Of a DNA stretch of 64,000 bases, positions 13,347-51,639 are shown one piece after another. Both the position numbers and the translations under genes were made by a program. The notes beneath the pieces were generated by a model. It was not told where the DNA came from, searched no databases, and saw only the letters and a list, made by a program, of their open reading frames with translations. The stretch is from contig OX621249.1 in assembly GCA_951640165.1 (NCBI GenBank), positions 6,375,001-6,439,000 of the forward strand, given 5' to 3'. The stretch comes from Pseudoips prasinana (lineage: Eukaryota > Arthropoda > Insecta > Lepidoptera > Nolidae). Position 1 is the first letter of the stretch. The number at the start of each line of letters is the position of its first letter.

Positions 13347-13774
13347 TATAACATTAAATCACACTTACAAAAATAGTTTGTTTTTATAAGATGTACAAAG
13401 TGAGTAAAAATGGCATAACTACCAAGATTAAAATAAAATAAACCTAATAGACGCAAGCGAGCTGTCCCCATGTTATTTAAATATAAATATAACCTAAAAA
13501 TTATAATAGAGTATTCAGAGTAGAACTTTACAAAATTAATTACATGAACTAATTTTAATAATTTGAACTTTGTATAGTGACACAATAGTTTGTACTTCAT
13601 TTGTATTAAAATATCAGAAAACCAAAATATTATAATTATTTTAAACACAGTAGTGATTAAATGTATTATTTTCTGTACCAATGAGTAATCATAGCAACAA
13701 CAGACCTTAAATACAGGGCAATTAAGCAGCAAATAATTCACCACATAGATGGATATCCAAATAACTAACAAAAG

Positions 13775-14701: not shown

Positions 14702-14967
14702 GGTTCTCGATAGGGTAAAAGTAATTCGCGTAGGACAAGAATATACCGTTGCACTCCCCACCGCCACGGACAAGATCAGCGACGCGAGAAAGAGACGAAC
14801 TGTTTCTATGTATCGGGTCTTTTCCTCCAATGGGCAACTGATAAGGAACACTAAATGCACTGTATTAAAGACGACTTTTGTTTGCACTAGAATTTAGAAA
14901 TCTTATTACGATGTGAAGCACTACCACCTTCGACAAGTGTCTGGAGCCAACTGAAGATATATTCTCC

Positions 14968-15959: not shown

Positions 15960-16041
15960 ATGTACATTTCAACCGCGCGGCCACTTCGTAAATTTTGATG
16001 AAACTTTGCCAGGAATTAGTAATAATTTGTTACTATACGTA
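15960..16041 (+). repeat. foldback left arm, outer piece
   Basis: Matches the reverse complement of 39806-39886 almost exactly and stops at TA, where the IS630-like element is inserted. The arm resumes at 22517. Confidence 0.92.
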
Positions 16042-16366
16042 CAACCCGGCCGCGATAACTAGACACCTGGCTCAAATGACATTTGTCTATAGTACTGAGT
16101 GCAAAAAAATGATAGTGCGTGCTGTACTTTTTGTACGTACTGTTTTATAATTTATTACCTACTGAGATAAAACAAGTACTAATGACGAATGTAGTATTTT
16201 TGACTTCATTATCATTACAATTTGGAGCAGTAACTTACCAATATTCGTATTAATATTTTTTTTTATAAAATTAAGTTCATTCTTGTTAAAGTAAGAAGTA
16301 GGTAGAACAATTAATTTCTTACAGTAATAAAACAAAAAAGGATGTTATATTCATTTATTACTAAAA

Positions 16367-16872
16367 TTATAACGAATCGTCACTCAATTCTTCTATACCA
16401 GACATATTATTATCGCTGTCATTTTCTGTGTCTTCGCTTTCAGAAGAAGTCTCTTCTCCTCCAAGAGAAATAATGAATTCCCTTTCTCGGTGTTCTTGAA
16501 GTCGATCTTTCACCCAGTATTCTTCCTCCAGTCTCTGGACATGATTAACTTCTTTTTTCCAGTCCGCAACTGAAATTGACTGGATTGCTTCTCTAGTCAA
16601 CTTTTCAATAAGTCTTTCAGACTGATCTATATTTTTGTCTGCCTCCCTTTGTTTAACTAAATTCCAGATGTATTCTATTGGATTTAGATCACAGTGGTAG
16701 GGTGGCAGACGTAAAACCTCGTGGCCATGCTCCCTCAACAGTTCGTCTACCACATATCTTTTTTCTGTCTTATTTAATTTTATGATGTGGTATAATTCTG
16801 GCTTCGTCATCTTTTCATCAAAACTTATATTATTTTTGGTAAGCCAGCTTTGCATCTCACTTTTGAGTGATG
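16367..16872 (-). pseudogene. IS630-like transposase, C-terminal half
   Basis: Reads SSLKSEMQSWLTKNN, then HEVLRLPPYHCDLNPIEYIW (the third catalytic region, with E in NPIE), then SISVADWKKEVNHV and an acidic serine-rich tail ending at a normal stop. The first two catalytic aspartates are in the other half at 20944-22275. Across the P element the frame joins as EKIPCQSS-LKSEM, so this half itself is undamaged. Confidence 0.88.
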
Positions 16873-16880
16873 ACTGGCAA

Positions 16881-19800
16881 CATAGAGGTAAATGGATAGA
16901 GAAGCTATCGTAAGCAAAATTCTTGCTCCATTTTGGAAAGAATTAAAACTAAAGTTCGCTGCAGCGTTAAAATATTAGCTACGTCGTCTAACCAAACTAT
17001 TAAAACATGCAGCGCTAGATCGCTTACAGAGTACAGTTTTCTCGCGACCAAAACGTCGTAAGCGCCGGGAATTTCATGGCGCTTCCGCGTTTCGTTCAAC
17101 GTAGTGTAACAACATGACGCCCTTATAGATTATACACCGCAGAAGAGATACAACCTCGATGCGGCTTTTGTACCTACAAAATTTCATTAAAGTAAATTCA
17201 TTATATTCTATTTCAAAATTTATAACTGATAAATAAATAAATAAAAAAAATGGTAAAGTAGAAAAGTAAAGGACAATGATTTGTTAAACGTTTATTTATA
17301 CACAATTACGTTTACAATAGTTTAAAAATAAAATCAAATTAATTAAACTCGCACCTCAGTGAGGCTTCCATAGCTAAATGACAAACTTTGCGGTTGAAAA
17401 AAGCTAGCAATCAATGTATATCTCAGTTTCCTTCAAATAGGATAAGTTTTGTCAGTTTCTGTCTTTTTGTTGAAAAATGTATGTCGGGATCTGTTTTGGC
17501 TTCGTGGTGTAATCTTATTTTGGCGTATTTTTCAATCACAGCTCTGATCAAATGTGTTCTGTGATTTAGTGTACCTGGCTGTTGTAAAGAGTGTAAATAT
17601 AGTGAATTGAATATATCTGAGTTCAGAAACAGTTTTAATGTATTTGATACAATTGTATTTATGTTGCTAAATTTCCTGGGCAAATTTTTACCGTGTCCTT
17701 TGTATTTTATCAAATGAAGTATCAGTGTTTCTGTTTTCAAGCAAATTTTGTAAACTTCTTCAGTTGAATAGCACAGTCCTCCCATATCTTTTAGCTGAAT
17801 CAATTTGTGGTGCCATGTTCGAACTGACGTAACCAAGCAAGAAATGCACTCTTCACATTTAAGTTCTTTATTCAACTTTCTTGATACATAGCCTGATATA
17901 TAGCCCACGATCAATTTTTTAGCAGTTGTTAATTGTTCCGCATTTAAACGATCAGCAAGAATTGTACAATTTGTTTCCGCAAGTCTGTCAGAGTCCATAG
18001 TTCTTTCGTTTTCAAGTATCTGAAATTCTTCTTCGTCGTGTCTGTTCATTATAGCTGTATCATTAATAACATCCACTGAAGAAGAAGAATTCAGTATTGT
18101 GAAGTTATCCAGTGGGATGCAATTCCCTGTGAAAGATGACCGCAGCTCTAGATGATTAAGCACTTTTTTATATGCAGCTCGATATTGCAAAACATTTGGG
18201 TTATTATTATTCCCACCGTGTCTCCGGATGCAACCAAAAAACAGCTCCAAGTGATCTTGGCTTAGTCTGTAGGTAGATAAATATTTAATCACCGATTTTT
18301 CCACCAACGCCGAATATAACCCTTTGAGACTTTCTATGCATATTAGTGCACCAACAAATCCAGTCTTATTTTTCGATTCAACTATCAGCTTCTTCGAAAT
18401 GCGTAATAGTATTCTTGGTTCCCGATTTGGCATTCGGATTTCTCGCCTTTGTTTTAGATGGAACTGCAGCCTGCTAATGTATTTTTTGGCATTCTCTAAA
18501 AAAGCGAAAATTTCTTCACTGTTTTTGCAATCAAGGGGTCTTTTGTATCCATAAAAATGGCAAGATTGAGAATTAAGTACATCAAAAAGATTATTCATTG
18601 TAGTAATAAATTTCACTGTACCTTCGGAGTTCTGAAATTGAGAGGATTTCAACTCCTTATCGCAAAGAATTAGTGCGTTCGCAACACTCATGCTCAGTAA
18701 TTGTGTTGCTAGCTTTACTTTCATCACTTGATTGCGAAAGTGAATATGCCGGGGAGACAACTTATTGGCAAAGTTAAGTCCTTCACTTTGTTGTAATTTG
18801 GTCAAATTAACAAGAAGATGCCATTTTATAAGTTGGTCATCTTCATCATAGAGACGTTTTTTGTTCTCAAATGTGTTTCGTATAAGTTTTATAACATGGC
18901 AAGGGTCAACTAATACGTATACTTTGTCTGAAGTAGAGGGATGTATAAAATATGTTTTAAGGTTATCTATATCTGAAAAATCACATCCTAGTTTTTCAAC
19001 AGCCTTAAAATTTGCCGGACACCCATCGAAAGTGATACTGGGTACAAGAACTCCTACCTCAGAGCATTTGTTTAAACAAATTCTTATTAAAGATGCCTTT
19101 GTATCAGCACTGATACCTGCGGCTAAAAAGTAGCCTACAGGAATTTTCCAGTTTTCTGACATAGAAACAAGCATAAATACTAACACTTGCGTTGCTACTT
19201 CTTCTTCTTGGCCTTCTACAGGACAGTCTCCGAAATTTACATATCCTAACTTTTTGTGCTTGAACAGTTTTTGCTTCCTCAATGCCATTTCATCGAAAAC
19301 AAGAGAGCAAATAACCGTTTTGGAAGTCGAATCAGATTTAAGTTTTAAGCTTTTGAAAGATTCATCTGTAAATCCTGGTTCGGCGTTAATACTTCCATAC
19401 CACTTGCTGAGAGTCCGAGGATGGGGTAAAGCATTTTGGAAAAATTGGCGGACGTATTTATAAGCAGCTGGTGAATAGTAATTGCAAGTGAGAGCAAATT
19501 TTCGTATGCTTGGAGAGTACTTAATTTTTTTTTTAGATTTTCTTATCTTATGTAACGTATTAGAATACATCTCTACTACTTCAGCTTTTTTCACCAACTC
19601 ATTCTCTATTTCTTTATTAATTCCGAATTTTCTTTTCAATTGTTTAAGAATTTCAGTTAAAGTTCCTGTTTTCTTCTGAAGATACTTATTTTGCCGTTGT
19701 AATTTTATAATTTTTTGTGACAATACCTTTTTTGCAGCAGATACTTTCCTTAAATCTTTTTTCAACTTAATTTTTCGGGGTGTATCAAAAATTGATTCAG

Positions 19801-20935
19801 AGTCAGAAATTTGCATTTTGTCTAAAGATGTTGGAGAAAACAGTGGATTTTTGTCAGTATATTCTGAAGGATTACTACAAGGAATAGCCGACTTCTTAAG
19901 AAAACGCTTTCCAGCTTTAGTCGTATAAATATCACCATCTCGAAAGTGTGCAGAGCAGACAAACGAATATTTTGTAGGAAGCCACGTGTCTTCGCTCCTA
20001 TCCTTCTGAAGAATTTTTATCCATTCTTCTCTTTTCGAATGACCCGGGTGAATAAACCTGAAATATATAGGTGAATACTTAAGTACCAGTAGGTAGGTAA
20101 AGAATTGAAAAAATGGCTAGTATTGAACTACCAGATTTAATAAAATATTGAACCAAGAAAATTTTTTTATCACCAAAAATAATAAACGTGCACCAAATTT
20201 TTAATACCAGTGAAATTATAACCAAAAATATTACATTTTGCTCATACAGTATAGAAATAACACCAAAATTAATTATTGTTTACCAAAAACTGTAACCAAA
20301 AAATTATGTTTTTACACTTTTCCCAGTAAATATAAAGACAAACTTACCGATGAAAACTGACACCTGATGATTCGCTTACATTTCTCGATGTATTTTTGCA
20401 GTATCGAAATACGCACGTCGTCATATTTTCTGAAATTTGTCAAACATTAGTTTATATTATATACTAAAAATATAGAACGTAAAATAATTATTCAAAAATA
20501 ACAAACCGGTTATAAAATAAATTAAAACATTTTCTAAAAACACCACGTGAAGTCCGTGTTCAGACGTATGTTTTTACCTACAACCGGTTTTGTAATGGAA
20601 CATCTGCATGATTTAGTCTATGATTGTACATGGCGTAGCATTTAAATGAACATTTATCTTTTCTCTTGTGGTATTACGATATTATTACATATTTATTCAC
20701 TTGAACAACAAATGATTTTACTTACTGGCCTTCTCAATTGTTATTTACGTCCAAGTTCACACTTTTATTCGAATTATCGTACTTTAACGTAATATTAGCG
20801 CCGCTCCGTACGCGCCCAAGCTCAATGAACGTCGAAGTCGCACTAAAGTAAGGTGTACGGACTGCAGTACAGTTCAGTTGAACAGAGCGAGTGTTCGGAT
20901 CGCGAAATCTAGTGCGTAGTACATATATATCGATG
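16881..20935 (-). mobile_element. P element (THAP-type) with 8-bp target duplication, apparently intact gene
   Basis: The direct duplication ACTGGCAA lies at 16873-16880 and 20936-20943. The element then runs CATAGAGG...CGATG, so both ends start CAT, as in known P elements, although the inverted repeats beyond that are poor. The match in fact extends to GATGACTGGCAA (12 bp) because the right end ends in GATG. Removal with one duplicate restores the IS630-like transposase frame exactly. It carries one gene, which reads as functional. Confidence 0.85.
17423..20424 (-). CDS. P-element/THAP9-like transposase (two exons, intact)
   Basis: Exon 1 is 20348-20424 and exon 2 is 17423-20057; the donor CATCG|GTAAGTT and acceptor ATATTTCAG|G join in frame (HRFIHPGHS), giving 903 residues without a stop. 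The N-terminal THAP zinc finger is complete: C-x4-C in MTTCVFRYC, then FVCSAHF (C-x2-H) and RFLKKSAIPC. A coiled coil follows (LSQKIIKLQRQNKYLQKKTG). The RNase-H-like core has LVFDEMALRKQ (catalytic D), ITFDGCPANFKAVEKLG, and DPCHVIKLIRN in the GTP-binding insertion region. DHLELFFGCIRRHGGNNNNP is the signature P-element C-terminal block with the catalytic E. Intron 20058-20347 is AT-rich. Expected to act in the nucleus as a GTP-dependent transposase; expression is unknown. Confidence 0.9.
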
Positions 20936-20943
20936 ACTGGCAA

Positions 20944-22275
20944 GGTATTTTTTCGGCTTGTGTTGAGTGATACGGCGCGTTATCTATTACAACTATGCCG
21001 TTTGGAGGCAAGTTTGGCAACAACTTTTCGTTGAGCCACTTAACAAAATTTTTTGTGTCCATCTCGTCGTGGTAATCGCCTGTCTTGCTTTATATTTATA
21101 TAATAACTCGGCCCCGGGGATGAAACCATATTCGCCACCCGCATGAACGAGAATCCAACGTTGGCCGGGATTGCTATTTTTCTTTATACTAGCGTCGCTA
21201 CTATTCTGCCAGCATTTTCTTACTGTGTAGTGAGAATGTATCCAGGTTTCATCTACATACGTCACCGGTTTTTTGTCCGGTCCGAGGTCGTTATTCTCTT
21301 TCATTCGTCGCAGGTATCGAGCCCTCCAGGCAGCGATATCAGGCTTTTGTATCAAAACCAATCGGGCATTCTTGAATTTCTTAAATTTGTATCCCAAATG
21401 ATCCTTTAAGATGAGCCGCAAAGTAGTCCTCTCACCTGTAAAAAAGAGTATTTTTTATAATTTAAGTTCATTTCCTCATCGTAAAAATATTCTATTAGGT
21501 ACCAAAATTTTAGCCAGGTATTATATAAAATAGTAATAAAAAACAACAAAATCGTGAGTACGCTTTATGCAAAAAAGTATTCGAGCGATCGAGACAGAGT
21601 GAATGCGAAGCACAATAGAACACAAGCCACCGGGAACACAGCCCAGTTCCGAGTTCCCAGTTCCGGGAATTCTTTTGTAGGTATAATATTTTCGAGAACT
21701 GCATAGCGTACGGAACCGTAAACATTCTTTAGAAAACAAAAAAAAACCACCCTGACAGTACTTGACACATATACGATATTAGAGAGAAACACACTTACCC
21801 GGAAAATTCAAATCCTTTTTTGCAGCGGCCAATATTTTCTTCAGCGTAGGGACTTCCTTTTTGACAGTGTAGAAACTGTTGATTAAGTTTCTCAGGGCAA
21901 CTAAGTCGAAATTGTCCAAATTTATTCTTTTCCGTGGTTTTCTCTTCTTGCCAGGTGTTGACGGTTCATTTGATGGTCCGGGTAATTGGGCAGACGTCGA
22001 AGTACTCGGCACCGGTAGAATTGATGGTGTTACTGGTTTTACTTGCTTTTTTATTCTCATTAATGTACTTTTAGATATACCAGTAGCCGCGCAAGTTCTA
22101 TTTATCGGTTGATCCACCGGAATCATAAACTTTTTATAAAATTTTTCATGCTCATAACTTTTTTAGGGTCCACAGGAATCAGGAATTTGCTAACTTCCTT
22201 CTCACGTTCAAAAAAAGCCAACACCTTGAGTACCTTGAGTAAGGCCCTCTCTTTACTGTGTATGGTTTTACCCAT
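20944..22275 (-). pseudogene. IS630-like transposase, N-terminal half, frameshifted
   Basis: Starts MGKTIHSKERALLKVLKV at 22275. A frame change occurs near 22130, inside a partial repetition of the FLIPVD/FMIPVD codons; then NRTCAATGISKSTLMRIK (helix-turn-helix) and a proline/serine linker with the basic KKRKPRKR. An intron follows (donor GGTAAGTG near 21793, acceptor TTTTTTACAG near 21436). Exon 2 reads LKDHLGYKFKKFKNARLV, TYVDETWIHSHYTVRK (first catalytic D), GQRWILVHAGGEYGFIPGA; after another frame change near 21090 it reads NGIVVIDNAPYHSTQAEK (second D). This is the IS630-type DDE protein common in insects and aphids. Confidence 0.85.
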
Positions 22276-22516
22276 CGTATAATTGTTGTTAAAATTATAC
22301 GATGGGTACAAGAAAACGTCCAACGTAACGATAAACAAAAACTCAACAAAATAATTATAACAGCAAACAAACAAATGACTCCGAAACTCAAGAAAGGGTA
22401 CGTGCAACGGTAACGGCTATGCTAACGTTACTGAAGGACGAGAGCGGGGCCGCGCGCGGGGCAGCGGGAGGAGGGTTGAGTTTCGAGCCAGGTGTCTAGT
22501 TATCGCGCCCGGGTAG

Positions 22517-23086
22517 TATCTCTTTTCCTGAATTTGTTGCAAAAGAAACTAAGATGCTATGACTAAAAACAGTTGGCCGCTAGGACCGCCACTTGCCGTA
22601 GTCATTACCTATGATTACATAGAAACTAAATTAAGCAGATAGGCGAATGATGCGTCAAAAAAAAGATCATAACTTCTTGTAATTGTTGCAAAAATAAAAG
22701 ATTATAAAATATGAATAAACAAAACGTTATGCAATATTAAGTTTCCAGGTTATGGATAGGTAGGTATTTCATCATTCGTATGACATTATTGGAGATTAAT
22801 ATGTATGGACAATTAGTTGATAATTTGTTACAACGAATAAACAGAAAAAAAATCTAGAAAGTAGGTTAATTAATTTGTTAGAGTCGATTTTAGTTGGCCG
22901 GTCGGACGGCAATATGCCTAATAAATCAATGGCGTTTATCTCGTTATTAAAGGTAGGTTTAAGCTTAGTCAATAGTACTAATCGACAGGTAACATAATCT
23001 GTTTTGGATAAATTAGACGAAAATAGTGGTTAAATTCATATTTTAAGAGATTTTAGCTAAAATATAGTAGTATGAGACTGTATTTG
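22517..23086 (+). repeat. foldback left arm, middle piece
   Basis: Continues the left arm after the IS630-like insertion and aligns over its whole length with the reverse complement of about 39236-39805, with scattered substitutions. It stops at GTATTTG, the target duplication of the LINE; the arm resumes at 34333 with AGTAGAGTGACCATGA. Confidence 0.9.
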
Positions 23087-23950
23087 AAAGAAAGAAAGAA
23101 GAAAGAAAGAAAAAGATTTATTCAGTAAATGCACAGACAACAAGAATATAAAATAACATAACAAAAAATAAAATAAAAACAGACACTAGTTGTCCGTGCA
23201 AGCCTGAAATGGCACCATCTCAGCATTAGCTAGAACATTTTATTGTTCTAGCGCTGGTCATTCTGATGATGCCAAGTGACTGTCACGGAACATTAACTTA
23301 AATAATAAAGATAAAAGTATGTCACGGACAAAAACGATAAAATAAGAATAAAACAAACACAATTTTTAACAATAAAACAAAACAACATTGTTTCTACACC
23401 CTAAATAGATAAAAAATAATTAAAAAAGCTGGTGTAATTAGTATGCTAGTGGCGCATCACTAATATTCGTCCCTTTGGAGCATTATGCGTTCCATATCAC
23501 GACCGAAGCGAGTAGAGAGTCGTACTAAACACGTTATATACTCTTTGGGACAAAGGTATAAAAGTTATATTATTTGCTCTGTGGGCAAACAACAACAAGA
23601 TTACAAGATTCAATAGAATGGTTTGTTTACATTACGTACCTATTACAGGAACATTATTTTCCGATCATATAAACACAAATTTATCAGACACGACAATACT
23701 AAAGACTAAAGTAATGAGTTAAATGTAATGTATACATGAACTGTCGGATGAAGCACTGCTGCTTGTATAGCCATACTCATCATGTGAAACGGTAAAGTGC
23801 ACCAAGACTTATCGAAAATGTCACAACTGTAGAACGAAAGCAAAATTTACCTCTGTTATGTGATTTCCACAGTCCTCCCAGCTATACGATGCACATACCT
23901 AGGTAAGTAATAATTTTTTATTGTAAAACTTGTAAGTTTACTTCATTTAG

Positions 23951-24101
23951 TTAACTGTTTAAAATTTCCTGTGCCAGTAGTAATTTTTTATATTTTATGT
24001 TAAAAGACCACGATGTTCGCAGGCATCTGAGCGGAGGCGGTATGGTTCGCCAAACCTTGGCAGCAGCGTATTTAAAAGAACCACGGAAAGCAGTTGTTCT
24101 A
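23951..24101 (-). pseudogene. LINE ORF2, C-terminal end
   Basis: Reads TAFRGSFKYAAAKVWRTIPP and LRTSWSFNIKYKKLLLAQE, ending at TAA. It directly continues YLISTPKHRT on the far side of the MULE at 24102-32344 when one copy of the 9-bp duplication is removed, which proves that MULE's borders. Confidence 0.88.
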
Positions 24102-24880
24102 GCGTCCGTTACCTCAGCCAGATGTGGTCGAAAATGGTCATTTGAATCTTATAGATAATTAGTTTTGCGGCTTCTGTAATTGTTGCGCACATTTTTAAAT
24201 TTGTTGCGCTTATAGTTTTTTAATTATTTCACAAAAACATTTCCTGCTGAGGTAACGTTACCCCAGCCAGACCTTTTTCTTTCTAATGGGAATATTTAAA
24301 TAAATACTAGCTATAAAATTAGTTGTCTAGATGAAGTAAATGTTGTGCCTTATTTTGTATTTGTTCTTTCTTCGGTTGCGAAGTTATTCGAGATTTTGCT
24401 GGGGTATCGTTTTTGGTTTTGCTAGATCTTTGAAACGGTTAAGCGGATTCTTATCATATTTTGTACAAGACTTCTTTATAATTAGTTTAAATTTGTTCTG
24501 CAATAAAAATACCAAAATAATACATAGCTTAAAGGTTATTTCATTAAATAGAAAAACACTTCAATTGGTCCCAGCACTCTCAATAAGAGGTCTAAAGACT
24601 TACTTTAAACATTATTTTGAAGCTTGTGACTGCCTTCAAATGTATGTAAAGTTTCATTAGTATCCTGTAAGTATTTAACAAGTTATGATGATATTCAGTT
24701 CTTCACGAGCACGGTCATGATGCGCGCGGTGTTATTTGGCAACTGATAAGCCTGTATATGGATATATGAACTGAATGTTATGTCAATTATTAGTTGTGTA
24801 GTTCAGTTGTATATTAGTAAAATTTCAACGTAGTACATTGGATAATTAATGAGATAATACGATTAAAGTCATTAGGAAGT
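24102..24880 (+). repeat. MULE left terminal inverted repeat
   Basis: Aligns with the reverse complement of 31566-32344 with only a few substitutions. It contains a 106-codon open frame (24340-24660) also present, identically, in the other arm; no protein family is recognised, so I treat it as noncoding. Confidence 0.95.
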
Positions 24881-25912
24881 GAATGAAAATGAATGTGGTT
24901 ACGAAAAAGCGAAAACGCAGAACATTATGCTACCTTCTAAAATATGTAGGATAGTGTTACAAATTTAGTACAGACATTTACACAAGTGTTAAAAAAACTA
25001 CATGTTTATTAACGAATTTTTATTAACAGGTAAAATAATCATTTCAATTGAACTTTTAAAGTATTAATAAACTTATACTTAAAAACAATCACAGATTAAA
25101 ATTACAGATAGTAATTTTGCTTTTTTGAATTTTCTATTACTTTTTATTTAAATGATAGATTTCAGTAAACACAGTACACAGTTACAGTTTTTATTTAAAT
25201 AGGTATACACAATATTGGAATGTGTAATGATCACAGACAATAAATAATTATATAATGGTTTTTTTCAGTTAACACTAAACTTACGTATGTCTACTAATAC
25301 CCACTTATATCAATTAAAATCACAGATCAATGGTAATACTAAATGACATCACAATGTAGTAAAATGCTCACAGTTAGTCCTACTGTTTTGTTGTCTCATT
25401 TCAAATATCACATTTTTTTCCCTAAGTTTATACACATAAAATGAACTTAAACTATTTAAAAATCACAGATCAAAAATAATAAAATTTAGTAATATTAAAC
25501 TGCAGTCAAATAATTATGTAAGTATTACTTTTAACTAATTACAATCTCAAAAAGTCAACGTGTAAAGGTAAATAAAATAACTTTGTGACACAAAAGTTGT
25601 CATAAACAGAGATCTAGTTGCCGCTCTAGAGAGACCATAAGCGTAGGCAGATTTTGTTGATTCTTACGTCAGTCGATCAAATGGTCATGATTTAGGTTCT
25701 ATACTAAAAAGTGTGAAATATGTGTTCGCCATGTTTAATTTAATAAAAAACACATTGCTTCCGACTGCACAAGATTGGAGACGATTTTTTTATTATTATT
25801 ATTATCACATCTATAAAAAAAATGTGACTAACATTAAAAGTCACAATTTTAAAGTAAATACATGTCAAGTGACAATACAAGATCTATAAAATAGTTTTGT
25901 ATTTTAGATAAA
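24881..25912. other. MULE 3' noncoding region
   Basis: AT-rich, no frame with recognisable motifs. It contains scattered copies of ATCACAGATCAA/ATCACAGATTAA (near 25090, 25320 and 25460), possibly a short dispersed motif. Confidence 0.5.
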
Positions 25913-28900
25913 TTAGATATTATCAGATTGTAATGTATAAATAATCGCGTGAGGCATTAAATTAATCTGACTCTTCTGAATTTTGCTATACATATCGTCA
26001 TAACATTGAAAAGTTCTAGTTTGTGTTCGATAGCAATGAGCTTTGTAGTGGCCAACTCCTTCAAAGCTGAGAGGTGGATGAAATTCAATGACTGCCAAGA
26101 TCACATATAATCTATTATTAATTTCAATATTAATTGGGATATCATTTAGCTGTAAATTAATATCATGAAGCTCAAATATTATTAAATGGCTCAAATGATA
26201 ATTAAATGAAACTGTGCCTATTCTGCAAGAAACACAAAGTGGTGAGAAATCGTTTTTCATTCCTGCTTCTACAGACTCTTGTAAATTTGTAATACTTTTT
26301 TGTTTTATGAGATCTATATTCAATGGCAAGTATTTGCATTCAAATGACTCTTTGTTTTGGTGGCTAGTGCAAGTTGCGTTTGAGCAAATTCTTTTTCTAG
26401 TAGCGGAAAAGTATGAAATACAAATTTCTTCTAATATTTTTGTAATATTACATGCGCAATTTATAACATTGGACGTAGTTTCGTTATTTGTTTCAAAATT
26501 AGCACAAAAAATATTACTTAAAAGTACATCTCTTTGGTTGTAGAGTTTTTGGCTGAAGTTCTTTGCAGTAGCAAGATTTGCGATGAACGTCGTAAAAGCG
26601 TCATTTTGCATTCTTTTACTGTTGTTGATCTCCTGTCTGAATGTATTTCTTTCTTTGTGCGTCAAATGCACAAGTATTAGTGAGAATTATACTTTTATTT
26701 CTAGATATGGCTATGTTGCCATTTTGTAATATATATATAGGTTTTATGCTAACGTTTGTTTTTTTGCGTGAAACAGCAAGACCTCGCCAGTTTTCTACTT
26801 CAACAGGTTCGTCCTGAAATATAGACTCTAATTCAAAGTCCTTATTGTACTTCACGTTTCGTGTATGAACTGCTGTATTTCTATTTACTAGTAAGTTTTG
26901 AACATTTGAATTTTCTAAGTTATATGTAGATGTCTGCGGAATAGGCGCATTTTGTAAAACTACAATTTTACTTTTTGTTTCATGTGTAAAGTCAAAATTA
27001 TTAGTCATTTTTCGTTTTCGTAAAATGTCTTTATTTAATTTTGTTTTTTCATTATTTTCAGAAATGTTTAATTTGACGGACCCATTTATAAAACTATAGT
27101 GTTGTACTATGAACTCATCAAGTCGAATTCGCTCATCTTTGGTATTATAATATATGGTCTTTAGGTCCTTAAAATGATTTTCATTATTTGAACTACTAGC
27201 TACTTCTTTTGCATTGACAAAATATTTGGTCATAACATTACCCCACATAGGTAATTTTCGCAACAGCCTTTTTAAAGTATCGTTTATAGACGGCAAATAA
27301 TACTCATTTATTTGGTCATGCTTTGGGTCAAGTAATAGCAAATATAACTTTTCCATTTCCATTATTTTGTTGTAATAATTGATAAGAGGACAAACAGTAC
27401 CAGTATTCATAGTTACCTCGTCATTTTCATCTAGAAAATGTTTATCTGTTTGATCATCGTTATCGACACCAATCACATTAGTATCATCCTTATAATCAGT
27501 CAAACGCTGTAGAGCTTGCTCATATTTACCACATAGCTGACCATCTAAACCAGGACTAACATATTTGTGTAATGATACTGTTACTATATCATTGATAACA
27601 GATTTTATTTCCTTATAGCAATGTAGTGTATGAATTTTCTTTATACAGTTAATATAAAAATATTTGCATTTTTCTGATGCTTTGTCAAAACTACTTTGTT
27701 TAGGCAGTTTTTTAAAAAAATGCGATTTTTCTAACCGAATGTAACAAACCGGCACACAAACATCTAGCCCTTCTAAAAGCGAAAAACACTGCGATAAATA
27801 ACCATTTGTATCGGTATGAAGAAAAGTACGACATATAGCTCCTAGTAGTGCAGACGAATCGTCACATACAATTTCTTTGGGTAGAGATCGATTTACTGCC
27901 CATGTACTTAACCAAGTAGCTATAGCTTCAATTGTGTGTGACTGTGATACCATATAACATAAAGGAATACTAGTACTGATAGTATATGCCATGACAGCAT
28001 ATAGAAAAGTATGTTTAGCGTCTTTAAGACTTACTCCTGGAGGCGCTATCGGTTGAAAAATTGAACCAGTTGCGTCGATGGACAAAACAGTGTGTGTATT
28101 TTTTAAAACGTCATCATAATATTTACTTTGTTCATTTGTCCATAAGTAAATAAAAAAAGGGACAAGAGAAAATTTCCGTATAAATGTATCGAATGGGGAA
28201 CTTTGAGACATAGCATAGATGGATAATATTGTGTTTTTATCAAATTGAAGGGCCCTTTTAACATCATGTCGTATTTTCCTTAAATTACCTAATTTAGGTA
28301 GCGTTGGAGGTTCTTTTGGATTATCTATTTTCATGAGTTCATCAGCCAGCAAAGTTCTGACTTTAAGCGCCTTTTCATACTTTAATTGTACAGCAATTTT
28401 TTGTTTTCGTGTCGATGTAAGTTTATTTTTAACATTCAAATCGTGGACATGGTCTTTCTTGTAATTATTTATTTGACAAATCACCTCTAAAAAATTTTCA
28501 GTTTTAGGAGATATGTCAACAATAATAACTGCGCCACACTGAGTACATTTTCCATTGCATTTAATAGAGTCAAACAGTAAGTTCGTAGGTACGTAATTAT
28601 TTTTAAAAGCAAACGTACAATTAAGATCTGTCTTTTTCCATATTTGATCTTGCAGCTCATTAGTCCAACTATTCTGTAATAACGTGTGGTTTTTAGGTGC
28701 AATACGTTTAAATTCGTGAATATCCATTAGAAACTTTACTTTGAAATCAGAATTACTGTAGCTATCATTAATATTTTCAAAATCACCGTTACTGTCAAAG
28801 TAGTTTCTTTTGTTCGTATTGTCTGTTACGTCATCAACCCGTACATCTGTGACACTATCATGGAAAAAATAAAATTTATTACGTCTCACTGACATTTGTA

Positions 28901-29066
28901 TGGCCATTTTAGACATCTTATGTTGAAATATTTCATGCAATTCATTCTGTATACGTTCATATACATCATGAGTAATAGAAGGACACGACTTATTAAATAT
29001 ATATGCATATTTAGAAATAATGCGTTTTTGATCTTGCAATGGTATAGCGCTTTTTCTACCTGCCAT
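25913..29066 (-). pseudogene. MULE transposase fused to a USP-like cysteine-peptidase domain, one frame break
   Basis: Starts MAGRKSAIPLQDQKR at 29066, after a likely acceptor (TTATCCACAG at ~29103-29112). A zinc-knuckle-like CNGKCTQCG lies near residue 175. The DDE core reads LSIDATGSIFQP (D ~331), EIVCDDSSALLGAI (D ~402) and NNENHFKDLK (E ~630). After VENWRGL a second module begins: IILTNTCAFDA (Cys box), then, in another frame from about 26640, LYVILAVIEFHP...GVGHYKAHCYR...FQCYDDM, which is the His box and D of ubiquitin-specific proteases. The frame change between Cys and His boxes (overlap 26616-26671) is one indel or, less likely, programmed frameshifting. A related protein is at 34621-37583. 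Confidence 0.8.
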
Positions 29067-29404
29067 TTTGTTTGCCTTGATTGAGTGCACGAGCGTAATC
29101 ACTGTGGATAACGGGCTAAGAAATTAAATAATTGAGGTCCGCAAATATTGGTCGCTGAGAAGATTGCCATGCCATCGTACATCGGTCATCAGAACATCTA
29201 TAACAAAACAAAAAAAAATAACTGTAAATATAACAAAGTTTTATTTAGAGCTAAAGGGCTGTCGAATTGTAATATGAAAATAGAGGAAAAAGATCAAAGA
29301 TTCAAAACAATATTGTACACAATAAAAGCCTATTAACTACTAAATAGGGTATATAATAAAATGCATGATTCTATAATACTATGTATGATAATAATATGCA
29401 TTAA

Positions 29405-29565
29405 ATTCATTATATCGCGCTCCCGAGGGAACCCTTCAAGATTCCGGGATAAAAGCTATCCTATGTTCTCTCCCGGGTTTCAAACTATCTCCATGCCAAA
29501 TTTTATCAAAATCGGTTCAGCGGTTTAGCCGTCAAAGCATTACATACATAATATCCGATCACATG
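29405..29565 (+). repeat. old interspersed repeat (CCATGCCAAATTTTATCAAA type)
   Basis: Contains ATTCCGGGATAAAAGCTATC, then TTCTCTCCCGGGTTTCAAA, then CCATGCCAAATTTTATCAAA and ATCGGTTCAGCGGTTTAGCC. I recognise this series as an extremely common arthropod, especially lepidopteran, dispersed repeat. Confidence 0.7.
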
Positions 29566-30689
29566 ATGACCGAAAAAAAAAAATATTATTAAATTCCCCA
29601 CCGACAAACCGATGACGTCATCGGGTCTCGTTTCAACATGTTTGTTTAGGAGAAAGTTAAGAAAAGGAGAGAATTCGTGAAGTTCATTAGGAGTTATACC
29701 TTATTATAATATACGCATAAGGCAAAAAGACAAAAAGAATACTTAAGTACATTATCAAGAAACTTAAAACACCCCTCTTTTTGCGTCGGGGGTTAAAATT
29801 ATATGGTGTCGTCGTCACTATCAGCTAACAAAACTGCTTTTCCTGGTATCAAATTAAAAATTTCACCTAAAAAATATATTTAAGTAACACTATTATAACA
29901 GCTCGTAACAAAAACTCATAATAACAAAAGGTACAATTTTGTATACGCCCGAGACGTATACGGGGTGCGGGGGGCAAAAGTCCGAGTGACACACCAATCG
30001 CGCGCTCAGATCGGCGCTACGCTACCTAATAAAAACGACTTCTGCGCATCTAACAACTTTTGCCAAGTTACGTGTTGGGGACTGTAATAGCGCGCGTATT
30101 TAGAGCATTTTTATTTACGTACACTTTACATTTGTAATAATCTACTTACTATAATGTAGAAAAATCTATTTAAGTCCTGATCCATAGTAATTGCGACAGG
30201 TAATAAAGATTGTACAGTGGCCAGCAGGTCAACCTACCTAAATCGTAGTAGTATATACCTAGCTAGATATAAGTACGTACTCACCGTAGATTGAGAGTTT
30301 CTGAATTACAGACGTAGAGAACGTCAAACGATATTTTTTACATCTTCACCACGCAACCATAGTCGCCACCACACTCATATGCAGGTATTATGTCGCCATC
30401 ACCGCGTCCATCATCGCGGCCCGTGGCTGTTGCTATGTTGCCATTCTGTTTATGCCTACAATAAAAAGAAAGAGTACATTTTTTTGTCTAAATCCTTAAT
30501 GGGGTTTCAATTGTAGTTTTGCTACATATTTGAAACTCGAAACGTCATCTATTTGCAAGTTTATATCAACGCGAGTATCGCAACAAGGTAATTATGGATT
30601 TCTTAAAGTCTATGTGTCCAAGGAGTTTGTGGAAATAAATACCTACCTACTGTTGCGGTCATGAATTTCATTAATCAAGTTTCAAGTCT

Positions 30690-30885
30690 ATTACAAACTA
30701 GCTTCCGCCCATGGCTTCGCCCGCATAATATGTTGACAATGTACCTATACATAAAAACCTTCCACTTGAATCAGTATATCTATTAAAAAAAACTGCTTCA
30801 GATTCCGTTGCGTAGTTTTAAAGATCCAAGCAAACAGGGACAGACAACGGGAAGCGACTTTGTTTTATAGGTACTATGTATCGAA
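30690..30885 (+). repeat. old interspersed repeat (GGCTTCGCCCGC type)
   Basis: Contains TTCCGCCCATGGCTTCGCCC, then CTATTAAAAAAAACTGCTTC, then CGTTGCGTAGTTTTAAAGAT and GACAACGGGAAGCGACTTTG. The same common lepidopteran family of dispersed repeats, distinct from the one at 29405. Confidence 0.7.
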
Positions 30886-31565
30886 GGATAAATATGTCGT
30901 CATCATTGTCGAGAATTCCAGTCCAGGTAATAACTAAGTACGAAAAAAAAGAAAATAATAAGTAAGTTCCTAAATTCAAATATTTAAGCCTTAAAAAAAT
31001 ACAGTTTTAGATAAGTACCTAACAACATGTACATATTAATAATAATTTTGCCACTATTTCTGTAGTTACATTATGCAAGCTTACCTTGTTCGTGAATTCG
31101 TCAAGCAGCACGCACCATAATTATGATCATCAATAGAAGCACTCCACATTAACAGTAATTTGCCACACTTATTATTATAATAATAGCTCTCACGCACTCG
31201 ATAAATATTTTCAAAAACAGGAAACGTAACTGCCAAAGCGCACGCGCACTCTACAAGATGAATTATGTAATTATGGAGCATGTTTAGTGCGTTATACAAA
31301 CAAAGAATTACCCCTTCACCCCACCCCTCCCGCGTCCCGCCGAACGACGTGTTATCGGTGATTTTTGATAAGTATGTGCAACTGGAAGATAATAATAATG
31401 TTTTCATAGTACAGATATTATTATATTATTATGTATTTAACAGTGTACGCGTCTGTACCGAAATTGTAAGGTGTATTATACTAAACATTTCAAAAGATAG
31501 CATAATGTTCTACGTTTTCGATTTTTCGTAACCATCTAAACTTGGTCGGGTTACCACGGTCATTT

Positions 31566-32344
31566 ACTTCCTAATGACTTTAATCGTATTATCTCATTAA
31601 TTATCCAATGTACTACGTTGAAATTTTACTGATATACAACTGAACTACACAACTAATAATTGACATAACATTCAGTTCATATATCCATATACAGGCTTAT
31701 CAGTTGCCAAATAACACCGCGCGCATCATGACCGTGCTCGTGAAGAACTGAATATCATCATAACTTGTTAAATACTTACAGGATACTAATGAAACTTTAC
31801 ATACATTTGAAGGCAGTCACAAGCTTCAAAATAATGTTTAAAGTAAGTCTTTAGACCTCTTATTGAGAGTGCTGGGACCAATTGAAGTGTTTTTCTATTT
31901 AATGAAATAACCTTTAAGCTATGTATTATTTTGGTATTTTTATTGCAGAACAAATTTAAACTAATTATAAAGAAGTCTTGTACAAAATATGATAAGAATC
32001 CGCTTAACCGTTTCAAAGATCTAGCAAAACCAAAAACGATACCCCAGCAAAATCTCGAATAACTTCGCAACCGAAGAAAGAACAAATACAAAATAAGGCA
32101 CAACATTTACTTCATCTAGACAACTAATTTTATAGCTAGTATTTATTTAAATATTCCCATTAGAAAGAAAAAGGTCTGGCTGGGGTAACGTTACCTCAGC
32201 AGGAAATGTTTATGTGAAATAATTAAAAAACTAGAAGCGCAACAAATTTAAAAATGTGCGCAACAATTACAGAAGCCGCAAAACTAATTATCTATAAGAT
32301 TCAAATGACCATTTTCGACCACACCTGGCTGAGGTAACGGACGC
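31566..32344 (-). repeat. MULE right terminal inverted repeat
   Basis: Reverse complement of the left repeat, ending GGTAACGGACGC immediately before the target duplication GTTGTTCTA. Confidence 0.95.
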
Positions 32345-32353
32345 GTTGTTCTA

Positions 32354-34325
32354 TGTTTTGGTGTTGATATGAGGTAAGCCGACGCTGTGGTATTATATAA
32401 ATTGTGGTCTCTAGACCAACAAAGTTTTGAGTGAAGGTATTGTGGTCTACGTGTCGCGATTAATCCAAAAACCAAAGTAGAGAGGTGAAGTAATCTACGT
32501 GATGACATTTTCATCATATTTCCGCTATTCAGGAATGGAGTGACATGTGACCGTGGAGGTATATTATAACAGAAACGTGCGCATGCGTTTTGCAGTCGCT
32601 GTATTAACCTTTCAGATCTTTTTAATAGACAAGCTCCATATACCGTGTCACACTAGTTTAGTCGAGACAATATGAGTGACTCGCAGAGGGTTGTCCTAAT
32701 GTGAATATTAATATAGGGTCGTATTCTATACAACAGTTTGAGTCTGTAAAAACTGTTTTGTACAGCTTGTTGTATGTGGGTTTCAAACTGTAGTTGGCCA
32801 TCAAATACAACTCCTAAATTGCGAGCTTCAAATACTTGTTCTATTGGCAAGCCATCTAACATGACATTGGGGGAATTTAAAGCAATTTGTGTTATGATAT
32901 TCTTGGAACCCATGATTAAAAATTTTGATTTAGCTGGATTTAACACTAATGAGTTTTTATGTGACCAGTCTGCTATCCTATCTAAGTCATTATTTATTTT
33001 CATTACAGCTTCAAGACAATTAGAAGGAGTAAATGAAAAATACAACTGAAGGTCATCTGCGTATAGATAGAAACTACAGTTCCTTATGGATTGAGAGATA
33101 TCTGCTGTATAAATTATAAAAAGTAATGGGCCGAGGATTGAACCCTGGGGTACGCCTTGTTTCACTGGACATTGTGAGGATGTGACCTCATTGCCAATAG
33201 TTTTATCTCTCATCCGAACAGACTGGAAACGATTACTAAGGTAACTATGAAACCACTTAACTGCTTCCGTGCTACAGCCATAATATGAGAGTTTGGAGAG
33301 TAATAGTGAAACATCAATGCAGTCAAATGCACGAGAAAAATCTAACAAAGTAAGGATAGTTCCCATGCCCTGATCTCTAGCTTCTAATATATTTCCTACT
33401 ACGTCTAGGAGTGCAGTTGATGTGCTGTGACCTTTGCGGAAGCCAGACTGGCATACCGGCAGTATATTAGTGTGCTCCACATATTCAGTGAGTTGATTAC
33501 ATACCAGTCTCTCTAGGATTTTAGAGAGGCAAGGCAATAAGCTTATGGGACGTAGATCTTTGGGGCTAGAAGGATTTGACTTTTTGGGTATTGGTCGTAC
33601 TATTGCGGTCTTCCAAAAGTCTGGAAAAGTGGAAGTTGATATAGACATATTTATGATTTTAGTAATTGTTGTTAAAGTCTGTGGAAGTGTCAAAGTCAAC
33701 ATGTCAAGTGAGATGTTGTCGATCCCTATAGAATTTGACTTGAAGCTGCGGAATATTTTCAGAACTTGTTGTTCATTAACAGGTTGGAGAACAAAATTCC
33801 CAGCACTAAACCTATTATACTCAAATTTTGTTAATTGAGATATGGTAACGGTATCTTTACAGGGAATCTCTAAAAAGTGTTTATTTAATAGGTCAGGGTT
33901 ACTGTAGTGTGGTGGTATATCACTATTTTGTGTTTTGTTGAATGATATATATTTTTTTAAGTTGTTCCAAAGTTTTTTAGGGTTTTTTATGTTTCTATTT
34001 ATGTGATTGCTATAATATACAGACTTTTCCCTTTCAATGGCAGCTCTGACTTCATATTTAAGGGCTTAATAAAAATTGATATGAATGTCTGACTTAGTGC
34101 GCTTACATTTACTATGATGCCTGTCACGAACCCATATCATTTCTTTTATAGTGGGAGTGATCCAAGGATAGTTTCTTTCTTTGACTAGGATTCTTTTAAT
34201 TGGTACATGGAGATCAAAGAGGGCTAAGATGTCCTTGCTTAAAGTCTCTACCATATCATTAACATTTTCTAGTCCACAAATATAGTTCCAATCCATCCTG
34301 ATCAAATCACTTTGGAAGATCTCAG
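32354..34325 (-). pseudogene. LINE ORF2: linker and reverse transcriptase, two premature stops
   Basis: One minus-strand frame starting inside the endonuclease-RT linker (RMDWNYICGLENVNDMVE). The reverse transcriptase shows LLDFSRAFDCID, VKQGVPQGSILGPLLF and LYADDLQLYF (catalytic YADD). Stops interrupt it at 34066-34068 (after HINFY) and 32653-32655 (SRLN, where Tyr is expected), both in frame. It continues RRLLHLSTLVFGLIATRRP to YLISTPKHRT, where the MULE cuts it; the end is at 23951-24101. 5'-truncated, so dead on arrival. Confidence 0.88.
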
Positions 34326-34332
34326 GTATTTG

Positions 34333-34360
34333 AGTAGAGTGACCATGAATTTTTACAATG
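34333..34360 (+). repeat. foldback left arm, innermost piece
   Basis: AGTAGAGTGACCATGA continues the arm past the LINE and pairs with the reverse complement of about 39222-39237. Similarity fades beyond ATGAATT. Confidence 0.75.
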
Positions 34361-34620
34361 AAGTAAAAATGTTCGGTAAGGTAAATATAGCATACCTACT
34401 TTATGTAAGTAAAAGTCACAATTCAATTAAAATTTCTTTATTCAAAATCAACACAACAAATACAAATAAATCAAGTAATCAAAAATTAACGGGATAGATA
34501 TAAAATCTCTATAAACTTACATATTTATTAACTGTCACAAATATATGACACAGAATGTAGACATATTTTCTTTCTGGTACTTAATTCAATTTTCATAAAA
34601 TTGTCGTCATAACAATAATA

Positions 34621-37583
34621 TTAATTTTTATTTAAAAAATGACATTTATAGTGGCCAATTTTTGTGCCTGGTAAAAATTCAATAGCACCAACTAAGTAAT
34701 AATAATTAGTTTTAATGTTAATAACAAGTGGCAGTTCAGTGAGTAAAACTGAGTCTGCAGCTCCGTTTAAATCAAATGTTAAGATTTCGCCTAACTTAAG
34801 TTCACCTTTTAACTGTGTGTCACATTTTTGACACATCGTGTTAATTTTTTCATCAAAACAAATTGCTTCTTCTAAGCTTGATATTCCAAATAAGTTTAAA
34901 ACATCAAGGTTAATTAAGATAAATACATGGTCTCTTTTTAATTGTATGTTATTACAATTTGTACAGGTTTTCAAGTATTGAGCACTTGTAAAATATTTAA
35001 TAAATATTTTTTCAAATATATAAGCCACATTGCAACTGCACTCTTTATTTTGGAAAAAAGCTTTTGCTATTTCTGATCTACAGTTATAAATTTGCTCTAT
35101 ATTAAGTGTTCCGTTCAAGAGCATAAAAATGTAATCAATTACGAAATCTCCTTTTAATGTACTCAAAAAGTTTTTGAAAGCTAAACTTCTAATACAGGCT
35201 TGACCTATTAAATAAAATGCTGAATCAAAGACACAGGTATTAAAATAACCTGAACTTTCTTTTAATGTTACATTCCTGTTTCTTATAAACACTATTTCGT
35301 CATCTTTTGTAAGGGGGTTCTGTGTGTTCAATTCTCCGCGCCAATTTTCCATGTATGATGGTCTATCACTAAATATGGAATCACTGGAGAAAAATAAATC
35401 TTTTTGTTTTTGTTGGATTCGTTTTTTAGAATTACCGTCTTTCTTTTTATAAATATTTTTATTCATGGCACGTCTAGTCCGGTGTTGTTTTGATTTTATT
35501 AAAGAACGCTTATTATCAAGTGTGGAACCGAAGTTTTTTAATTGATTTGATGCCAAGTACAATTCTCCTTTGATATAATCATAGTGATGTTGTAAGTATT
35601 CATCAATACGTTGTCTCGCTAGTTTTGTTTTAAAAACTAACTGTTTTAAAGTGCGAAAATAGCTTTCTACAGATGAAGACGATGGGTTTAAGGTTTCAGA
35701 TTTGAAATAAGGGCACATAAAGTTACTCCACAACGGAAGTTTTATGAATAATCTTTTTAAAGTAGAGATAAAAAGTGGCAAATAGTATGGACTATTTTTA
35801 CTAACATAGGAATTTGCAGCGTTGCTTCTATTTTCGTTTTCTACCAACAGATCAAACCATACAACAATATCTCGAACGTCGGCATCGTCGAAAGCAATTT
35901 GCTCACATTCAAATACTTTATTTTGATCAACGTTTTCATAATCAACGCACTTATGACTGCTTAACAAATTGTCAAGATTTTGCTTGCTCTCCCTCAAACC
36001 CGAATCGTCGTTTTCAAAATCATTTTGATATAAGCAAAGTTTTATAATTTTAGTCATGATATCTTTTACAAGTGCAAAATCTTGACATTCTTTAATGTAG
36101 CGGATATACTTAATATAGTACATTTTAATTTTTGTATCAACATTTTCGAAACAAGTAAAATTATACAGAGTCTTTATAAAATGACTTGTATCCAATCTTA
36201 TAAAGGTTTTTGGTAGTTCTTCTTTATTTCCGTTCAAGACACTAAAACAACGAATTAAATAATCTTTCACACTTGTAAATTCTGTGAATGTTCTAACATT
36301 TGCTGCTACTAATGCAGATGAATCGTCTGTTATAACTTCGTGAGGATGACAACGTACATTTTTAACCACTGTAATAACCATGCAGAAACAGATGTAGTGT
36401 CATGTGAGTCGGTTATCATCTGACATAAAGGTACACACACATCAAATTGATTAATTAATATTATCACGTATAAGAAAAGTCGCTTGCTCAATTCATAACC
36501 ATTTGGTAACTTAAGAGGTTGAAACATTGAATCCGTGGCATCCAAAGTGATAGTTAATCTTTGAAAATAAGATTGATATTCACGGCAGTATTGTTGTTGT
36601 TCATCAGTCCAGTAATAGATGTGAATTCGAGGATAAATGTGTACATCACGTAAAAAAGCTGGTTCAGTCACAGCCATCGTAAGAATGCTTAGAATAACGT
36701 TATTGTGTAACCACATTCTTTTTCGTTCTTCGTACTTATTTTTCCGCAATGCATTGAGTGTTGGAATTACTGGTGCAGTATCTGTGCTTTCTTGTTTAGA
36801 CATCTTTGCTGCCAGTTGTTTATGTACCAAAGAAGCTGAGTTGTGTTTGAGCATTTTGGCTAATTTTCGTCTGACTAATGCATTCATTCTGTATTTTTTT
36901 CTCGGATCATGTTTTTTATTTTGATCTCCAACTGTGATTTGGCACTGACCTTCGATAATTTTATCTGTTACTTTTTTACACGCTATGTTTGTAAGAGCGT
37001 TACATTGACTGCATTGACCCTTTATTAAAATATGATGCTCAGACTCCACTTTGTAACTTCTGAAATTCCATGTGCACGGTAATCTAGTAATGACCCAAAT
37101 CTTTTTTCTTAAAATGTTTACCCATTTGTACTTAGGCAGTATTTTATATTTTTTAAATGGAGCACATGTTCTCAAGTCTTTTCTTTTATACAAGGCATTT
37201 AATGGTTGCAGTTTTTTCCAGTCATAGATATCTAATTCAAACTTGAAGTTTTTTGTGTCGTTTTCACTATGACGCTCATTAGACTCGACATAAAAATGTG
37301 ACGTTTTGGAACAGGTTCTCGGGCTATTGCTTGAAGATGATGATAAAGATGATGAGGATTGACATACACTTTGCTGTTTACATTTAGTGTTTAGAAACTC
37401 CCCGAAATTTCTTTTCAGTGACATGTAAAGAGCTGCTGGTGTCATAAGATTATCCAAATCACTTGCAATTGTATCAAATATAGGGTCTCTAAATTTAACA
37501 TCCAGTAGTTTGTCGGCATATTTCATAAAAACTTCTCTTTGTTTTGATTTCTCAATAATATGTTTTCGCCCAGGTTTACCCAT
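34621..37583 (-). pseudogene. MULE transposase fused to a USP-like cysteine-peptidase domain, one homopolymer frameshift
   Basis: Starts MGKPGRKHIIEKSKQRE at 37583 after acceptor TTTTATTGCAG; a donor CTGCG|GTAAGTTTT near 38503 suggests an untranslated first exon. Zinc-knuckle-like GQCSQCN near residue 190; DDE core LTITLDATDSMFQPL (D ~348), VITDDSSALVAAN (D), SSVESYFRTLK (E). After MENWRGEL comes the peptidase module: YFNTCVFDSAFYLI (Cys box), paired CTNCNN and CQKCD (zinc finger as in USPs), then YYYLVGAIEFLPG and IGHYKCHF (His box). The only lesion is one missing base in the A-run TTAAAAATG at ~36359-36363; otherwise ~987 codons are open. Paralogue of the gene at 25913-29066. Confidence 0.83.
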
Positions 37584-37688
37584 TTTTGCTGCAATAAAAA
37601 CAATTGATAAAATTAATACAAATGCTTAATACAAAAGATATAATTAATATAATTTGAAATATAATTTAAAATATAATTTGATAATAAT

Positions 37689-38427
<739 letters not shown>

Positions 38428-38435
38428 ATAGTAAT

Positions 38436-39221
38436 CGAACAACAAAACAAATACATATATTTAACTCGTACGAGTGTGCATGCAATTGTAAATAAAACTT
38501 ACCGCAGTTTATTTGCATCACTCTGAAATACGCTTGTTGGTAATAACTCCTCCATTAATAGATCCGACATAATAATGGAAATGATCACAACTCATAACTA
38601 AGCACTTTTAGACACTTCGGTAGTTAGTTGTAATTGTCTCAGCAACTTAATAGTATCGGAAATCACGGGAAAGAAATACGTACGATACGAACACTTCAAA
38701 ATTCAGTACGGTAATGGAAATATTCACATCAAATAATAATCGCTGCTCAACCCCTTGCGGCAAAATATTTAAATCCTTTTTTTTTACGACCGTTGCCATC
38801 ATAGACATCTGCGGTAAGTCAATGAAACGAAACTTTATCAGTAAATACTTTAAAACAATAGAAATTAACAAAGCCGCATACGCTTCGCATATTTTTTAGT
38901 GCACAACAATTAAGTACACCTAGCTACCTGCGTCCGAGCGGCATCCTTTTATCAATAACGACTTGCGCCGCATTGTCTCATTCTTTTGACGTAAATGATG
39001 ATTCATGACTAAGTTCGCAAGCTTCTGAAGTATAGCATAGATATAAGTAGCATAGGTAGCTATATTTTGTTCGGTAAACTATTAAAAGCTCCCTTAATCT
39101 AATGTGCCACCTATTGAAATAAAATAAATTAAATTGGATAGCGGTGAGGAAAAAATACTTACTTACCTACCATAATCCAGGTTCACCCATTTTATAATAT
39201 ATTCCTTCTTATTTATGTAAT
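38436..39221. other. MULE/foldback 5' region, no gene recognised
   Basis: Contains the splice donor described for the MULE gene and presumably its promoter. Short frames have no recognisable motif. Confidence 0.45.
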
Positions 39222-39886
39222 CATGGTCACTCTATTCTTATACAATTTAATTCTACTATATTTTAGCGAATATCTCTTAAAATATGAATTTAACCGCTAT
39301 TTTCGTCTAATTTATCCAAAACAAATTATGTTACCTGTCGATTAGTACTATTGACTAAGCTTAAACCTACCTTTAATAACGAGATAAACGCCATTGAATT
39401 TTAGGCATATTGCCGTCCGACCGTCTAACTAAAATCGACTCTAACAAATTAATTAACCTACTTTCTAGATTATTTTTTCTGTTTATTCGTTGCAACAAAT
39501 TAGCAACTAATTGTCCATACACATTAATCTCCAATAATGTCATACGAATGATGAAATACCTACCTATCCATAACCTGGAAACTTAATATTGCATAACGTT
39601 TTGTTTATTCATATTTTATAATCTTTTATTTTTGCAACAATTACAAGAAATTATGATCTTTTTTTTGACGCATCATTTGCCTATCTGCATAATTCAGTTT
39701 CTATGTAATCATAGGTAATGACTACGGCAAGTGGCGGTGCTAGCGGCCAACTATTTTTAGTCATAGCATCTTAGTTTCTTTTGCAACAAATTCAGGAAAA
39801 GAGATACGTATAGTAACAAATTATCACTAATTCCTGGCAAAGTTTCATCAAAATTTACTACGTGGCCGCGCGGTTGAAATGTACAT
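39222..39886 (-). repeat. foldback right arm (uninterrupted)
   Basis: Reverse complement of the left arm pieces 15960-16041, 22517-23086 and 34333-34360 in that order from the outside in. Because it carries neither the IS630-like element nor the LINE, it shows both pre-insertion sites. Confidence 0.92.
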
Positions 39887-51603: not shown

Positions 51604-51639
51604 CTTAAAGCTGTCTAAGTACCTGAAAGTGATGAAAAG

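Follow-up and report, generated by a model that had tools for sequence, protein, structure and literature searches.

Results

A stretch of 64,000 nucleotides from the lepidopteran Pseudoips prasinana (contig OX621249.1, positions 6,375,001 to 6,439,000; hereafter the window) carries two genes, at 25913-29066 and 34621-37583 on the minus strand, which probably are decayed copies of autonomous foldback transposons of the MULE/IS256 type whose transposase ends in a protease domain with the fold of ubiquitin-specific proteases (USPs), most likely an active deconjugase. Sequence and predicted structure show a single chain that carries both the transposase and this USP-fold domain, the latter complete in its catalytic residues. 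The genes belong to two elements, E1 and E2, the first nested within the second.

The initial annotation had described, at both places, a DDE core followed by a module with the boxes NTC[AV]FD and GHYK[AC]H, and this order was confirmed for the minus strand, with the module starting after the motif ENWRG. In E1, the N-terminal and DDE part of the transposase occupies 26796..29066 (-), with a Met at 29064-29066 and the acidic residues at 28074-28076 (D), 27858-27860 (D) and 27180-27182 (E), and the USP-like domain runs from ENWRG to the stop at 25913..26795 (-), with codons for Cys at 26670-26672, His at 26048-26050 and Asp at 25997-25999. The gene is read in two frames; compared with another copy, a short deletion breaks the frame just after NTCAFDA, at about 26658. 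In E2 the corresponding parts lie at 35350..37583 (-) and 34528..35349 (-), with codons for Cys at 35233-35235, His at 34651-34653 and Asp at 34606-34608. This gene is also read in two frames, with the frame change in the DDE part (near 36330-36381), and an in-frame stop at 34621-34623 falls between GHYKCHFLNKN and YYCYDD. The annotation had given a Cys finger to one copy and a FQCYDD end to the other; both features exist, and their division between the copies does not stand. E1 has the pairs CSNATC and CVSC and ends in FQCYDD, and E2 has CTNC and CQKC and ends in YYCYDD. The division arose because the first pair of E1 is CX4C and not CX2C and because the CYDD of E2 sits behind the stop.

Alignment of 14 domains (A4, which leaves out P0008, P0013, P0017, P0018 and the window pieces) showed Cys39, Cys129, Cys132, Cys173, Cys176, His233, Asp248 and Asp249 to be invariant at a mean column identity of 38%. 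The same eight residues are invariant in all 25 rows of a wider, hand-chosen set (A8, with five genome loci taken and most others omitted, as are P0008, P0013, P0017, P0018 and P0025-P0031), whose mean column identity over the whole length is 28%; the nucleophile Cys of the NTC-type box is thus unchanged across both alignments. Seven of the named residues all fall within the 24 invariant columns of 285, for which random placement gives a probability of about 1e-8, a value that overstates the case because the conservation of Cys and His exceeds the average. In every one of the 14 domains an Asp follows the His of the GHY box by 15-17 residues, and the finger position holds the putative metal-binding pairs C129/C132 and C173/C176, the first as CX2C or CX4C. 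The distance from the second pair to the His is 54-60 residues in all 14; two host USP exons have 94 and 99. The residues E-N-W ahead of the domain are nearly invariant. Among incomplete sequences, the fragmentary P0013, outside both sets, is missing the CYDD end as well as the first pair's second Cys, P0017 breaks off within the finger, locus L013 is truncated after CYDD, and P0026 and P0028 have NTCAFD and end before GHY; these last two were read and not counted. P0026, an annotated protein of Coccinella septempunctata, combines a fragment of a reverse transcriptase with the end of the transposase and the beginning of the USP-like domain, and is perhaps a gene model spanning nested elements.

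The initial annotation had also proposed structure prediction as a check, and comparison of the predicted model of P0001 with known structures gave a USP/papain-like fold of about 250 residues, with USPL1 and USP30 tied as the best match. No Ulp1 (C48) or OTU structure stands among the matches listed, though such matches may exist beyond these. Ahead of the domain, the linker is predicted to be disordered (pLDDT confidence <50 at 687-757). The P0001 domain scores 17.3 bits against Pfam UCH (E 0.0039, cut-off 23.9), and the best of the 14 members reaches E 0.0011. Domain residues could be paired with those of USP5 and, using hhalign, with those of host USPs, the NTC box falling on a host USP NTC (E 0.0075, probability 5.2%). 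The longer 25-row profile A8 did worse, ranking an unrelated chain (E 0.3) ahead of USP5 (E 0.34), and phmmer searches of single sequences against the PDB returned nothing relevant.

Regarding the transposase part, the residues D348, D420/D421 and E640 are present in 14/14 proteins and in E1, and the predicted structure of this part supports a DDE fold. Single-sequence Pfam scans of four window open reading frames (ORFs) and nine relatives gave no match to UCH or MULE, and MULE PF10551 is likewise missing among the families listed for the 25 members. A match to Herpes_pp85 in the DDE part (E 2.3e-5, 23.4 versus a cut-off of 19 bits; weaker in other scans) was taken as chance; in E2 it concerns 34621-36381 (-) and could mislabel such proteins.

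A search with the E2 domain returned nine related proteins, eight of them 907-1026 aa long, the best of which (1013 aa) is 87% identical over 97% of the domain region. These relatives, together with the invariance of the catalytic and zinc-type residues in both alignments, bear out the initial view that a chance fusion is unlikely, and sequence and predicted structure support its reading of a USP-like domain on a MULE-type transposase. A second search, with eight aligned proteins, gave 13 relatives, and 14 came from a third one that used only the domain, in partly overlapping sets; the 57 pattern matches in viral contigs included no relative. In the window's own genome (a 1.13-Gb assembly of 56 contigs) the E1 domain piece has at least 149 matches with E no higher than 0.001, a lower bound as the scored candidates numbered 150 of 236. 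Counted by eye, 28 of these matches have open frames no shorter than 950 aa; among the 28, three contain a stop within the match and one, locus L010, covers only the first half of the query. L036, an E2-family copy with 98.7% identical DNA, is open for 1032 codons through the whole domain. In the E1 family, the frame that runs through the L038 domain is open for 844 codons, the N-terminal part of L038 lying in a different frame, and L007 is also open through the domain. One identical domain sequence is common to nine loci, which points to recent copying.

The identities of the DDE part and of the domain run in parallel (Mantel r 0.90, with none of 2000 permutations as high; 14 rows, omitting P0009, P0013, P0017, P0018 and the window pieces), and separate maximum-likelihood trees of the two parts show no well-supported conflict, a group of six and the pair P0002-P0011 in the DDE tree being unresolved in the domain tree. 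The parallel distances and the lack of supported conflict point to one old fusion, with domain and DDE part inherited together.

Structure of the elements and their surroundings

Both E1 and E2 are foldback-type elements with MULE-sized target duplications, each combining long inverted repeats with a perfect 9-bp duplication; MULE/IS256 duplications are about 8-11 bp. E1 is complete (24102..32344 (-), 8243 bp), with the duplication GTTGTTCTA outside both ends. Its left terminal inverted repeat lies at 24102..24886 (+), with weaker similarity on to about 24993, and the right one at 31560..32344 (-), the 785-nt arms being 99% complementary. E2 spans 15960..39886 (-), with AAAACAATA just outside its ends, and holds later insertions. 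Its arms were located by comparison with L036: the right repeat is at 39221..39886 (-), and the left one is split into an outer 82 bp (15960..16041 (+)) and an inner part (22516..23087 (+)), parted by an insertion. A second 9/9 match found for the E2 duplication in an offset scan, AATGTACAT, lies inside the palindromic ends of the element itself and was rejected. The insertion in the left repeat (16042..22515 (-)) carries a P-element-type transposase ORF at 17423-19816 (-), open over 797 aa, with matches to the helix-turn-helix, both RNase H parts and the GTP-binding insertion domain. Downstream of the E2 gene, a further insertion (23088..34325 (-)) holds a reverse-transcriptase ORF at 32653-33702 and the whole of E1.

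The window as a whole is densely packed with nested mobile elements. At 10443-14887 (-) there is a LINE-like pair, in which a 902-aa reverse transcriptase ORF has upstream of it an ORF that matches Baculo_FP_2nd. A pogo/Tc5-like DDE_1 transposase, open over 884 aa, lies at 49036-51690 (-), and a DDE_Tnp_1_7 transposase, which we take to be piggyBac-like, at 63189-63758 (-). The 430-aa ORF at 45038-46330 (-) matches the RAG1 recombinase just below the cut-off (E 1.8e-5, 23.6 versus 25 bits), with a BED zinc-finger ORF near it at 42772-44085, and the region may be the remnant of a RAG-like transposon. At G000:C2:2349932-2388128 six UCH-profile matches cluster on both strands; the four that were read have near-identical Cys boxes, possibly a local expansion of USP genes.

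Discussion

Several observations weigh against reading the tail as a working USP-fold deconjugase. Both window copies are dead. The UCH profile search proposed in the initial annotation did give matches, in 5/14 and 4/25 members, all of them below the Pfam cut-off, and most members have none; a genome-wide UCH search gave no match at these places. The hhalign probabilities against host USP exons are low (17.5% and 5.2%), and one further host exon gave no useful alignment. For the predicted model the VIA root mean square deviations are high (4.2-6.2) and the whole-model pTM score is 0.47. No QQD-type (Gln-Asp) box, a motif of ubiquitin USPs, is seen at its likely place, where the equivalence of columns is unproven. 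Finally, the ratio of nonsynonymous to synonymous changes (dN/dS) between near-identical copies ranges from 0.17 to 1.48 among pairs with dS <0.1, which differ by few changes; as it is uninformative, selection on the domain is deduced from residue conservation alone.

As for the modifier, we lean slightly toward ubiquitin over SUMO, on the grounds of the GHY box and the UCH matches. A USPL1-like (C98) SUMO isopeptidase, which would act on SUMO carried by the transposase or by silencing factors, is possible, if doubtful, and must be taken seriously, since USPL1 shares the top structural match and the short stretch from Cys pair to His and the missing QQD-type box recall USPL1 traits. PMC8983731 describes USPL1 as a SUMO protease with a four-Cys zinc finger and without blocking loops, in which Met replaces a conserved Gln; the domain resembles that description in its putative four-Cys zinc finger and its missing blocking loops. 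However, USPL1 only ties with USP30, a single member of 25 touches the C98 profile PF15499 (E 0.2) against four with better E values for UCH, and the domain has GHY as in ubiquitin USPs, whereas in USPL1 Phe457 follows His456 (PMC8983731).

That the domain is catalytically dead and retained only as a binding fold we regard as improbable: inactive USP-fold scaffolds such as PAN2 and Sad1 are known (PMC10318531), and the domain is far in sequence from known USPs, but scaffolds are free to lose catalytic residues, and Cys, His and Asp are kept in 25/25 rows at low overall identity. It is quite improbable, too, that the domain is a processing protease by which the transposase cleaves itself during maturation, with no ubiquitin-like substrate. 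The linker predicted to be disordered and the nearly invariant E-N-W would suit such cleavage; against it, USP-fold enzymes of known activity, to our knowledge, act on ubiquitin-like conjugates. A functionless tail captured from a host gene appears very improbable. Although capture of host genes by MULEs is reported, frame and order agree and distances are parallel across 14 proteins that are 24-76% identical in the domain, many copies are open, and host USP exons are only remotely similar.

In the proposed mechanism, a single protein would comprise an N-terminal part that is probably DNA-binding, the DDE transposase and the predicted disordered linker, followed at the C-terminus by the cysteine protease domain of USP fold with its zinc-type finger. 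This domain would most likely be an active deconjugase working through a Cys-His-Asp triad, with the transposase itself, or factors gathered at the transposon ends, as its targets. By stripping ubiquitin or a ubiquitin-like modifier from them, it might let the transposase-DNA complex escape degradation or modifier-dependent silencing. Domain and transposase would have been joined once, before the sampled families split, and the domain retained since.

Compared with USPs (MEROPS C19; Pfam UCH PF00443; for example Ubp8, USP46 and USP30), the domain shares the predicted fold, the NTC and GHY boxes, the Asp after the His and Cys pairs at the finger position, but it lies below the Pfam cut-off, has a stretch from finger to His that is shorter by some 40 residues, and is fused to a transposase. 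Proteases joined to DDE transposases are on record: Ulp1 with Mutator, Ulp1 and OTU with Ginger1, and a Trichomonas protein combining transposase_11 with peptidase C19 (Bao et al., 2010, PMC2836005). The functional idea of Bao et al. for the Ginger1 and Mutator tails is the same as ours, and a like argument has been made for the VTD enzymes of Helitrons. By description, the Mutator tails have other protease folds and the Trichomonas example is a protist transposase_11 protein, not MULE-like. OTU and VTD occur with Helitrons, and the deubiquitinase activity of VTD was demonstrated (PMC9741609), whereas activity is only predicted here; Helitrons are rolling-circle transposons, and the VTD motif Asp-x-His is not found in our domain, in which the Asp comes after the His. 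The insect foldback/MULE elements FB-NOF, Tetris, Phantom and Muta1 have long inverted repeats like E1 and E2, and Tetris makes duplications of 8-10 bp (PMC4079207). The domains named in an arthropod-wide MULE survey (PMC13359780) are DDE and zinc-finger domains; the words protease, peptidase and ubiquitin are absent from its main text, as they are from that of a eukaryote-wide MULE survey. No USP tail on a MULE-like element was found in the literature searched, in which subscription journals are thinly covered.

In the same genome the tail is still intact in some other copies, which suggests that foldback MULE-like elements use it on the host protein-tagging system. A more far-reaching proposal, which we consider unlikely though worth stating, is that these elements form a large undescribed foldback MULE-like clade in which a compact USPL1-like deconjugase is an obligate part of the transposase and frees chromatin or repair factors at the element's own ends of SUMO or ubiquitin, countering modifier-dependent silencing by the host. 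If that holds, DNA transposons would independently have taken up a protease of ubiquitin-like modifiers once more, in addition to the cases of Ulp1, OTU and VTD. Proteases for ubiquitin-like modifiers occur on unrelated kinds of transposons, and the predicted USP-fold version is on one chain with its transposase, appears old and kept across many families, and is still open in some copies of a present-day genome. Why transposition would require such an enzyme could therefore be tested directly by one point change in one protein, and the domain would add a distant, compact USP-fold branch to the study of the choice between ubiquitin and SUMO.

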